42,347 bases of DNA from Nitrospirota bacterium (GTDB lineage: Bacteria; Nitrospirota; Thermodesulfovibrionia; SZUA-242), in the NCBI GenBank assembly GCA_003235715.1, contig QJVM01000026.1:1-42347 (forward strand), written 5' to 3'. Under the pieces are notes generated by a model that saw only the letters and a list, made by a program, of their open reading frames with translations, was not told where the DNA came from and ran no database searches. Made by a program: the position numbers and the translations under genes. Below are positions 1-4,504 of the stretch, one piece after another. Every line of letters begins with the position of its first letter. The first letter of the stretch is position 1.

Positions 1-651
1 AAGAAGCTGGCCGAGGAATCCAAACAGGAACTGGCGAGCCTGAATCTCTACGACCGCCCCCTTGTGACGCCTATCGTACCGGCGAGCGTCTTTTACCCGG
101 CTGAGGACTATCACCAGGACTATTACAAGAAGAACCCCATACGTTACAAGTTCTACCGCGCCGGTTCCGGAAGGGATCGGTTCCTGGAGAAGATCTGGGG
201 TAAGGGCGGGAAGGCCGAGATGAAGAAGTCGAGCGATCTAAAATCCCGGCTGACGCCCATCCAGTACAAGGTGACCCAGGAGGACGGAACGGAGCCGGCA
301 TTCCAGAACGAATACTGGGACAACAAGAAACCGGGGGTCTACGTGGATATCGTCTCGGGGGAACCCCTCTTCAGTTCCACGGACAAGTACGAGTCGGGAA
401 CCGGCTGGCCAAGCTTTACGAAACCCCTGGTCCCCGGGAACATTGTGGAAAAGAAGGACTGGTCCTTCGGCATGAGTCGTATGGAGGTGAGGAGCAAAGG
501 CGCGGACTCTCACCTCGGTCACGTCTTTGACGACGGGCCCCAGCCCACGGGGCTTCGGTACTGCATGAACTCCGCCGCCATGCGTTTCATCCCTGTTGAG
601 AAACTAGAGGAAGAGGGGTACGGAGAATACCTCAAGCTGTTCCAGAAGTAA
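1..651 (+). CDS. msrAB: Peptide methionine sulfoxide reductase MsrA-MsrB fusion, 3' part (partial at window edge)
   Basis: The frame is open from the first base of the window, so the gene starts outside it. The first ~65 residues match the C-terminal tail of MsrA, including the [12 protein letters not shown] motif. A short linker leads into a full MsrB domain with GTGWPSF, SHLGHVF and the catalytic-cysteine motif [11 protein letters not shown]. The paired CxxC zinc sites of many MsrB proteins are absent, as in PilB-type fusions. The protein should reduce both S- and R-epimers of methionine sulfoxide. Whether it is exported cannot be seen because the N-terminus is missing. A strong terminator-like hairpin follows at 694-743. 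Another msrA, with selenocysteine, lies 3 kb downstream. Confidence 0.93.
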
Positions 652-871: not shown

Positions 872-1582
872 ATGTCTTACCGAGTACTCCTGATCGAAGA
901 TAACCCGGAACTGGCCAACCTCCTGAAGATGCACCTTCAGGACCTGCACTACGTCGTCGAACTCGCAAACCACGGCAAACTGGGGCTGGCCAAGGCTGAG
1001 ACCGGCCGGTACGACCTGATCGTTCTGGACATCATGCTCCCCGGCATGGACGGGCTGGAGATCTGTCGGCAGATCCGTACCCACCCGGACTATGTCCCGG
1101 TTCTCATGCTCACCGCTCGCTCATCCGAAATCGACCGCGTTCTCGGGCTGGAAATCGGGGCCGACGACTATGTCACGAAACCTTTCAGCATTCCGGAGTT
1201 TCTGGCCCGGGTTAAGGCCCTCCTGCGCCGTACTGAAAAGATGAGGGCACCGTCCACGGATAAACTCCCGGCGCTGATCCGGGCCCACGATCTCACGGTT
1301 GAACCCGAAAAACGACGGGTCACCGTGGACGGCAGACTCGTGGACCTCACGGCAAAGGAGTTCGATCTGTTGCTTCATTTCGCCCGAAACCCGGGGAGGG
1401 TTTTTACCCGTGAGGAACTTCTTGAAGCCGTGTGGGGCTACAGCTATGAGGGCTACGAACATACGGTGAACTCCCATATCAATCGTCTCCGGGGCAAGAT
1501 CGAAAAGGACCCGGCACGCCCCCGATACGTCCTGACCGCCTGGGGTGTGGGCTATAAATTCGCGGAGACAGAGGAGCCCTGA
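872..1582 (+). CDS. OmpR/PhoB-family response regulator
   Basis: The protein has 236 residues. An N-terminal receiver domain carries the acidic pair E9/D10, phospho-acceptor D53 (VLDIMLPG), T81 and K103 (TKPF). A C-terminal winged-helix DNA-binding domain starts near residue 135 and contains LTAKEFDLL and the HINRLRGKIE recognition region. The stop is 3 nt from the start of the histidine kinase gene, so the two form a two-component system in one transcript. AAGGTG lies just before the ATG as a ribosome binding site. Flanking msr genes suggest control of methionine-sulfoxide repair, but this is inferred from position only. Confidence 0.95.
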   Translation: MSYRVLLIEDNPELANLLKMHLQDLHYVVELANHGKLGLAKAETGRYDLIVLDIMLPGMDGLEICRQIRTHPDYVPVLMLTARSSEIDRVLGLEIGADDYVTKPFSIPEFLARVKALLRRTEKMRAPSTDKLPALIRAHDLTVEPEKRRVTVDGRLVDLTAKEFDLLLHFARNPGRVFTREELLEAVWGYSYEGYEHTVNSHINRLRGKIEKDPARPRYVLTAWGVGYKFAETEEP

Positions 1583-1585
1583 CAC

Positions 1586-3070
1586 GTGTTCCGCACCCTC
1601 TATTCCAAGATGGCCCTCATTCTTCTGGGGCTCTTTCTGGTCGTCGGAGCCAGTTTCATAGGGGTGAGCCTTTACACGACCGAGATGTATCAGCACGAGG
1701 TGAACCAGAAACTGAATCGTGAACTGGCCCGCCTGCTGGTGGAGGACCAGCAGATCATGGTCGACGGACGCGTAAACGAAGCCTCCCTGGAGCAAACCTT
1801 CCACATGCTGATGGTCATGAACCCGAGTATCGAGCTGTATCTCCTGAATCCCGAGGGGAACATCCTGGCCTTTTCTGCTGAACCGGGGCGCGTAAAGCGG
1901 AAGAAGGTGGGTCTGGAACCCATCCGGAACTTTCTGAACGGGGGAGCGGCCTTTCCCATCGAGGGAGACGACCCACGGGATCTGGCCGGGAAGAAAGTGT
2001 TTACCGCGGCACGGATACCGGAGCAGGGTCCGCTGCAGGGGTACCTTTACGTCATTCTCGGAGGGGAGATCTATGACAATCTGGCCCAAAGGCTCCAGGG
2101 CAGCTATATCGTTCGTCTTAGTCTCTGGAGCGTTGTAACCAGCCTGGTGGTTGCGGTGCTCACCGGTCTCATTCTCTTTGCCATGCTGACGCGAAGGTTG
2201 CGGAGACTGGCACAAACCATGGAAGCGTACACAGGGGGCCAGGGTCTGGAGGGTCTCCAGTTGCCGCGTGCCAGGGACGCGGGGAAGGCGGATGAGATAG
2301 ACCGGCTGATCCTCGCTTTTGGTCAGATGGCCGAGCGGATAGAACAGCAGGTCCAGTCCATCCGGGAGGCCGATTCCCTGCGCCGCGAACTGGTGGCCGG
2401 AGTCTCCCATGACTTGAGAACCCCCCTGGCCACTCTCCAGGGTTACATGGAAACCCTGCGGATGAAGGAATCCTCACTCAACGAACAGGAACGCCGGGAT
2501 TATCTGGATATTGCCCTCAGTCACTGCCGGCGATTGAGTCAGTTGGTAGCGGACCTCTTCGAACTGGCCAAACTGGAGGCCCGTGACATCGGAATCCGGC
2601 CGGAGCCGTTCAACCTGGGAGAGCTGGTGCATGACGTGGTCCGGAAATTCCAGCTTCGGGCAGAGGAACGCCATGTGGGAATAGCGGTCGACGTAGCCGC
2701 GGAAACTCCCATGGTCGTGGCGGACATCGCCCTTATTGAACGGGTCCTTGAAAACCTGCTCGAGAATGCTCTCCGCCATACGCCGGAGGAAGGCCGGATA
2801 CAGGTCCTTTTGCGGCCTTCGGAGGAGAGGCTCGGCGTGACGATCAAGGACACGGGCCCGGGTATTGCCCCTGATGAACTGCCGCTCATCTTCAACCGGT
2901 TCTACCAGGGGCCCGGCACCGAGAAGGCAAAATCGGGTCATTCCGGCCTGGGTCTTGCCATCACCAAACAGATTCTTGAACTCCACGAGTCGCGGATTCG
3001 GGTCGAAAGCGTTCCGGGCTCAGGAACAGCGTTCTCCTTCCATCTGTCCCTGCACCGTTCAACCCACTGA
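1586..3070 (+). CDS. Membrane sensor histidine kinase
   Basis: The protein has 494 residues and a GTG start at 1586, three bases after the regulator stop. It has TM1 (about 8-30), a periplasmic domain (31-175) and TM2 (178-202), followed by a HAMP linker and HisKA with phospho-acceptor H275 in VSHDLRTP. The HATPase domain has its N box around N394, DTGPGI at 422-427 and GLGLA at 454-458. All catalytic motifs are present. The sensor region includes a methionine-rich segment, HMLMVMNP (73-80). Direct thiol- or methionine-oxidation sensing is possible given the msr neighbours, but the ligand is not known. Confidence 0.95.
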   Translation: MFRTLYSKMALILLGLFLVVGASFIGVSLYTTEMYQHEVNQKLNRELARLLVEDQQIMVDGRVNEASLEQTFHMLMVMNPSIELYLLNPEGNILAFSAEPGRVKRKKVGLEPIRNFLNGGAAFPIEGDDPRDLAGKKVFTAARIPEQGPLQGYLYVILGGEIYDNLAQRLQGSYIVRLSLWSVVTSLVVAVLTGLILFAMLTRRLRRLAQTMEAYTGGQGLEGLQLPRARDAGKADEIDRLILAFGQMAERIEQQVQSIREADSLRRELVAGVSHDLRTPLATLQGYMETLRMKESSLNEQERRDYLDIALSHCRRLSQLVADLFELAKLEARDIGIRPEPFNLGELVHDVVRKFQLRAEERHVGIAVDVAAETPMVVADIALIERVLENLLENALRHTPEEGRIQVLLRPSEERLGVTIKDTGPGIAPDELPLIFNRFYQGPGTEKAKSGHSGLGLAITKQILELHESRIRVESVPGSGTAFSFHLSLHRSTH

Positions 3071-3696: not shown

Positions 3697-3718
3697 TGCA
3701 TCAGGAGGAAACAGAGAT

Positions 3719-4504
3719 ATGATGAAACTTGATACAGAAAGTCTTTCGGGCCGCGCCGCGCTGACGGCTTTAGGGATGTGCCTGATGCTGTCCTCCCCAC
3801 AGGTCGCGGGAGCAGCCCCCTTGACGAGGTCCGATGTCACGCCGGCATCCGGGGAAACCGGCCACGCGAAAGTGATCGAGACAGCCACATTTGCCATGGG
3901 TTGATTCTGGGGACCGGACTCCCGGTTCGGGAGTCTTCGCGGCGTCATCCGTACCAGGGTGGGATATGCCGGCGGCAAGGCTGCCGCTCCAACCTACAGG
4001 TCTCTCGGCGGGCACGCAGAGACGATTCAGATCGATTTTAACCCCGCCGTCATTTCCTATGAAACCCTTCTGAACCTGTTCTGGGAAGGCCACTACCCCG
4101 AGGATCAGCCGTGGTCGGACCAGTACCGGAACATCCTCTTTTATCACAGTGAGGCGCAGAGAAGACTGGCGGAGCAATCAAGGAAGACTCTTGCGGTGGC
4201 AAGAGGAGGGATTGTGCGGACCGAGATCCGCCCCTTTGAAGGATTTCATCCGGCCGAAGAATACCACCAGAAACACGCCCTCCAGCAGTACAGAGTATTC
4301 CTGGATGACCTGAAGCGTACGTATCCCGAAGACGGGGACTGGATACACTCCACAACCGCCGCTCGGTTGAACGGATATCTGGGGGGGTATGGAGACTGCG
4401 ACAAGCTCTCGATCGAACATGATACGCTCGAGCTTTCCGCCGCGAACAAGGCCGAGCTCACGCGGATGGTCTGCGGCATCCCGTCCCGCCGGACTTCGCC
4501 GTGA
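3719..4504 (+). CDS. msrA: Exported selenoprotein MsrA (in-frame UGA read as selenocysteine)
   Basis: One frame runs from ATG 3719 to the stop at 4504 with a single internal TGA at 3902-3904. That TGA is codon 62, exactly where all MsrA proteins have the catalytic cysteine: the context is A-M-G-(TGA)-F-W-G. MsrA motifs follow on both sides of it: RVGYAGG, PTY, GHAE (catalytic E101), DQYRNILFYH, F-H-P-A-E-E-Y-H-Q. C227 and C252 could be resolving cysteines. Residues 1-33 look like a Sec signal peptide ending near AGA, so the enzyme is probably periplasmic. AGGAGG (3703-3708) is 10 nt before the start. The full protein has 261 residues. A perfect hairpin directly after the TGA fits a bacterial SECIS. 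An automatic annotation would split this into two fragments. A nonsense mutation is the alternative, but the position and hairpin make it unlikely. Confidence 0.9.
3902..3938 (+). promoter_or_regulatory. UGA(Sec) codon and bacterial SECIS-like hairpin in msrA
   Basis: TGA is at 3902-3904. Twelve bases later a perfect 7-bp stem begins (GACTCCC 3917-3923 with GGGAGTC 3929-3935), with loop GGTTC at 3924-3928. The loop starts 20 nt after the UGA and begins with GG, matching known bacterial SECIS geometry for SelB binding (apical loop about 16-37 nt downstream with an early G). It lies within the coding sequence, as bacterial SECIS elements do. Confidence 0.85.

Follow-up and report, generated by a model that had tools for sequence, protein, structure and literature searches.

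Does a UGA triplet at the catalytic codon of a bacterial msrA gene end a broken reading frame, or is it read as selenocysteine (Sec)? The question arises near the start of the window, by which we mean the whole stretch of Nitrospirota DNA analysed here (42,347 nucleotides). A first reading of the DNA letters without database searches (the sequence-only reading) had placed an in-frame TGA at the cysteine codon of the G-C-F-W-G motif, and the present analysis bears this out. TGA 3902–3904 lies in frame with the ATG at 3719, in the context ...TFAMG-U-FWGPDSRFGS..., and homology to MsrA runs on both sides of it. Past the codon the frame stays open for 199 codons and ends at TGA 4502–4504. An alignment of Sec- and Cys-MsrA sequences, which that reading had proposed as a check, likewise extends across codon 62. 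We conclude that the gene product is almost certainly a full-length MsrA, with UGA 3902–3904 decoded as Sec; for the window gene, both the insertion of Sec and the MsrA activity of the product are predicted from the sequence. Automatic annotation of 3719–4504 would yield two fragments. The features discussed below are collected in Table 1.

Table 1. Positions of the msrA locus and other features in the window
Feature	Position	Strand	Remarks
msrA-type selenoprotein gene	3719..4504	+	261 aa including Sec62; stop TGA 4502-4504
Shine-Dalgarno AGGAGG	3703..3708	+	10 nt before ATG 3719; 6/6 match
Likely signal peptide (residues 1-33)	3719..3817	+	by eye; hydrophobicity 1.51; low pLDDT 1-37
PMSR catalytic domain (PF01625)	3881..4285	+	Pfam
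UGA as selenocysteine (Sec62), predicted	3902..3904	+	catalytic position, G-U-F-W-G
Bacterial SECIS hairpin	3917..3935	+	stem GACTCCC/GGGAGTC (3917-3923/3929-3935), loop GGTTC (3924-3928)
C-terminal helical domain, selenoprotein MsrA (PF20939)	4346..4441	+	Pfam; fold match to 4lwj
Cys227 codon	4397..4399	+	one of a pair co-occurring in the family
Cys252 codon	4472..4474	+	partner of Cys227
MsrA domain end fused to MsrB (MsrAB)	1..651	+	cut by contig start
Response regulator and HAMP histidine kinase	872..3070	+	872-1582 and 1586-3070; between both msr genes
DsbA/FrnE-like selenoprotein gene	21144-20533	minus	203 aa, U-P-F-C; TGA 21099-21097; hairpin about 21086-21070

An MsrA of the helical-domain type

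Domain searches describe a complete, two-domain enzyme. The Pfam PMSR match spans the Sec codon (residues 55–189, E 6e-38) with the catalytic signature intact, and PF20939 matches residues 210–241 (28.7 bits; cut-off 23.7). The protein also passes the NCBIfam model TIGR00401 (110.8, cut-off 108.1). By profile, its best solved relatives are the Clostridium oremlandii structures, with 4lwj (CoMsrA U16C) matched over both domains at an E of 5e-80. An AlphaFold2 model with a mean pLDDT of 83, low at residues 1–37, has 4lwl and 4lwj as its top fold matches (TM 0.90 on the target, 40–41% identity over 200 aligned columns).

CoMsrA, from Clostridium (Alkaliphilus) oremlandii, is a 209-aa protein with no cysteine; its activity requires the helical domain, its Sec form is 20 times more active than its Cys form, and it is recycled by glutaredoxin and not by thioredoxin (PMC4333827). 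The window protein shares with CoMsrA (PDB 4LWJ–4LWM, 4U66) the Sec of G-U-F-W-G, the PMSR domain and the C-terminal helical domain, to which it adds a likely signal peptide and the Cys227/Cys252 pair; CoMsrA has no N-terminal extension. With canonical Cys-MsrA (e.g., E. coli, 1FF3) and MsrA-MsrB fusions it shares the catalytic fold, but these carry GGCFWC/GCFW, have neither a helical domain nor a SECIS element, and form a separate branch. In a tree of 92 proteins, the helical-domain clade splits from canonical MsrA with support of 100/99, and Cys forms are scattered inside it. The window MsrA falls in a Nitrospirota-rich subclade of 13 (support 100/95) on a branch of 0.86; despite the length of that branch, it retains its frame and the residues invariant in the family.

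Sec-MsrA with the motif GUFWG/H is counted among the verified prokaryotic selenoproteins in one source (PMC13188914), and Sec-MsrA appears as a known prokaryotic selenoprotein in another (PMC9312934); the window protein shares both family and motif with these entries. Because it matches the CoMsrA structures and its family is already listed in this way, the window MsrA is a member of the helical-domain Sec-MsrA clade (CoMsrA type), an already known kind. The sequence-only reading was right to call it a Sec-MsrA but overlooked the helical domain, the likely export signal and the other selenoprotein gene that the window contains.

In the predicted reaction, the selenol would attack the sulfur of methionine-S-sulfoxide, releasing methionine and forming a selenenic acid at Sec62, which a thiol would then reduce. 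It is very unlikely that Sec is inserted into a protein with some other function, for example a periplasmic thiol/selenol oxidoreductase. Such a role would suit the export signal and the additional cysteine pair, neither of which is found in the solved enzyme, and the activity of the exported branch is only predicted; against it stand the intact MsrA signature, the intact PMSR and helical domains, the 40–41% of residues shared with the solved enzyme across the fold, and the presence of another Msr gene 3 kb upstream.

The hairpin after the UGA codon

The perfect 7-bp hairpin with a GG-start loop that had been described at SECIS distance is confirmed, and proves to be conserved, with compensatory changes and frozen codons. 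Its loop begins with GG 20 nt after TGA 3902–3904 and its stem is a perfect 7 bp. Bacterial SECIS elements are described as hairpins right after the UGA with a small apical loop that contains a G (PMC1088965), a description that the hairpin at 3917–3935 fits (loop GGTTC at +20). The window has 99 TGA codons that can be read through with 8 or more open codons before them and 60 or more after; a scan of these found a SECIS-like hairpin with a stem of 6 bp or longer behind only eight, among which the msrA TGA ranks first. The isolated hairpin folds at about -12.7 kcal/mol; since the energy of the 46-nt stretch that holds it is not exceptional against shuffled sequences (z -1.1), we regard folding energy as weak evidence for a SECIS element and do not use it as proof. 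An Rfam scan of the window returned nothing at gathering thresholds, a scan that says little on bacterial SECIS elements.

The hairpin is conserved across 85 non-redundant Sec genes. Three of its codons are synonymously frozen: serine is TCC in 67 of 67 cases, arginine CGG in 53 of 56 and glycine GGG in 81 of 85. At the glycine, arginine, valine and threonine codons just past the hairpin, all synonyms are used. The core five stem pairs are standard in 92.9% of cells, and pairing falls to 57.9–60.5% when the partner column is shifted by one. Two-sided stem changes number 18; 500 shuffles gave 3.4 ± 1.7 and never reached that count. Kinship inflates these covariation counts, but the frozen codons are evidence of a separate kind. 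A smaller alignment of 23 rows varies too little for covariation, with one changed pair and the same number when slid by one; only the 85 rows decide the matter. A common or comparable conserved hairpin was looked for in the canonical Cys-MsrA genes of relatives, and none was found.

Conservation and spread of the Sec codon

The decisive evidence is comparative: the catalytic TGA is maintained well beyond this contig. In a search of 200 related genomes, each of the 22 top matches other than the window's own genome, from relatives of the same class, has TGA at the catalytic codon; those ranked below them are, with few exceptions, ordinary Cys-MsrA that lack a stop. A species-level scan of ~85,000 species genomes gave a similar picture. 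Among its best 80 loci, several of which are the same contigs as the class relatives (e.g., bins titled Thermodesulfovibrionia), the catalytic codon is TGA in 75, TGC in three and TGT in two. By title, these 80 loci come from Nitrospirota, Thermodesulfobacteriota, Chloroflexota, Myxococcota, Actinomycetota, Bacillota, Planctomycetota and others; the available text of the two listings (PMC13188914, PMC9312934) gives no comparable phylum spread. The earlier description of selenoprotein MsrA as rare therefore does not hold for the helical-domain clade. The gene is patchily present: the two genomes from the same family carry selB but no match to the window MsrA.

Two clade members with Cys (TGC), L116 (Dehalococcoidia) and L080 (Syntrophobacterales), keep a SECIS-like hairpin, with a 12-bp stem in L116, and are probably recent Sec-to-Cys changes. 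One Sec-MsrA, L043, has a second in-frame TGA (2041–2043, plus strand) at a position that is glycine in the family (GYLGUYG); this triplet could encode another Sec, terminate the protein or be an error.

These data bear on whether the window copy is a pseudogene or a sequencing error, in which case the TGA would either really terminate translation or be a wrongly read Cys codon, and what follows it would be debris. A TGA is one base from TGC or TGT, and the window copy is divergent, as its branch length indicates. A misread TGC or TGT at 3902–3904 is nonetheless excluded in practice, as TGA occupies this position in 22 other, independent assemblies of the same class, as well as in the great majority of the best 80 loci. 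The frame that stays open after the codon, the frozen hairpin codons and the lack of a comparable conserved hairpin in the canonical Cys-MsrA of relatives also count against this reading. We consider a pseudogene or error extremely unlikely and retain the reading as a Sec codon.

Selenocysteine machinery of the genome

A Sec codon requires the means to decode it, and the sequence-only reading had proposed a search for selA, selB, selC and selD, with the absence of selB or selC to count against it. All four are present. The genome is a draft (3.24 Mb in 271 contigs, 95.8% complete, 2.6% contamination; the window is contig 262), so the sel genes lie on contigs other than the window's. The tRNA-Sec encoded by selC has the anticodon TCA and scores 70 bits. 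SelA (620 bits) and a full-length SelB (356 bits) are encoded in one cluster; between their genes sits another whose product resembles RadC (L017, 2768–3568, plus strand, G000 contig C95). SelD itself contains Sec, with a TGA at its active site (TCGUAAKIGP), and the gene for the formate dehydrogenase alpha subunit (fdhA, 840 bits) has one in-frame TGA. At the msrA codon, SelB with Sec-tRNASec would bind the hairpin, which begins 13 nt past the UGA, and so deliver Sec at codon 62. That the UGA is instead decoded as another residue, either Cys through an unusual tRNA or Trp through an altered genetic code, would agree with the Cys found at this site in a few non-Sec homologues, but has a negligible probability given that TGA also terminates msrA and is no general sense codon, that the sel set is complete alongside selD and fdhA with TGA in frame, and that the hairpin fits the SelB-dependent mechanism.

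Probable export and a possible second start

The N-terminus of the window MsrA is likely a signal peptide for export, judging from its residues; its hydrophobicity of 1.51 is just below the threshold of 1.6. An in-frame hydrophobic segment precedes the domain in 63 of the 84 family members with enough upstream sequence, as against 11 and 5 in the other frames. From these counts we infer that export or anchoring is common in the family, the solved enzyme being without it.

Many relatives also have what may be a second start. Between the hydrophobic segment and Sec, 29–36 codons ahead of the latter, 37 of the 63 members, drawn from the Sec-MsrA loci L026–L126, have an internal ATG with a Shine-Dalgarno sequence (at least 5 of 6 bases). 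When codons are shuffled, such a site appears in 2.4 ± 1.6 members, with a maximum of 7 in 200, a comparison uncorrected for kinship. Desulfofustis glycolicus DSM 9705 (L059), a cultured bacterium, carries a Sec-MsrA gene in which the internal site was not seen. The AGGAG nucleotides persist at the site as the residues that they encode vary (KGG, RR, KEE, EEG, KEG). This pattern suggests that in relatives the internal site is a second start, giving a cytosolic isoform beside the exported one. A brief literature search found no paper describing an internal start of Sec-MsrA. The window copy was examined for an internal Shine-Dalgarno sequence and ATG, and has none. With somewhat less than even confidence, we conjecture that the clade commonly makes two proteins per gene, one anchored or exported from the upstream start and one cytosolic from an internal start ~33 codons before Sec, and that the window copy, having lost this second start, became an exported-only enzyme whose Cys227/Cys252 pair would suit an oxidising compartment.

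The cysteine pair and the reducing partner

Of 89 proteins, 14 have both Cys227 and Cys252 and none has just one of them, a co-occurrence that suggests a disulfide or redox pair; the two cysteines may have a resolving or a structural role. The window protein is not a 1-Cys MsrA in the sense of CoMsrA, which has no other Cys: it has Cys227 and Cys252 within its helical region, and Cys21 in the putative signal peptide. A cysteine in the C-terminal tail, found in 34 of the 89 proteins, is missing from it. We also considered a Sec-glutaredoxin as reductant, as reported for C. oremlandii, but no Sec form turned up: the search of the genome yielded a single glutaredoxin, whose gene lacks an in-frame TGA or stop.

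A second selenoprotein gene and the gene neighbourhood

The TGA ranked second in the window scan belongs to a DsbA/FrnE-like gene on the opposite strand. The DsbA-type domain PF01323 is matched at an E of 1.5e-29 when the TGA is read through and at 2.4e-18 by the post-TGA fragment. The Sec would lie in the context D-Y-V-U-P-F-C-W, and the codon is followed by a perfect 7-bp, SECIS-like hairpin (GGCTGGC-GGA-GCCAGCC) whose loop starts 18 nt after the TGA. Nine matches with one in-frame TGA occur in eight class relatives. DsbA-like selenoproteins with UxxC are already on record (PMC13188914).

Several neighbouring genes deserve mention. The MsrAB fusion at the contig start is truncated; G000 contig C206 (14–355) ends in a signal-peptide-bearing Cys-MsrA whose open frame runs into a TAA close to the end of that contig, and this may be the missing half of the fusion. 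A two-gene set of response regulator and HAMP histidine kinase lies between the msr genes; that it regulates msrA is only a guess. Farther along, a split-Soret cytochrome c-like protein (9403–8597, minus strand) scores 128.7 bits, below the 400-bit cut-off, and its gene is adjoined by one for an FtrD-like Fe-S protein (8512–8033).

Implications

The novelty is modest and lies in the probable exported architecture with its cysteine pair, in how broad the clade is, and in relatives that may use two starts. Sec-MsrA emerges as the usual form of the helical-domain clade across many anaerobic lineages, with Cys forms as scattered exceptions. An exported Sec-MsrA would also raise the question of which reductant serves the selenenic acid outside the cytoplasm.
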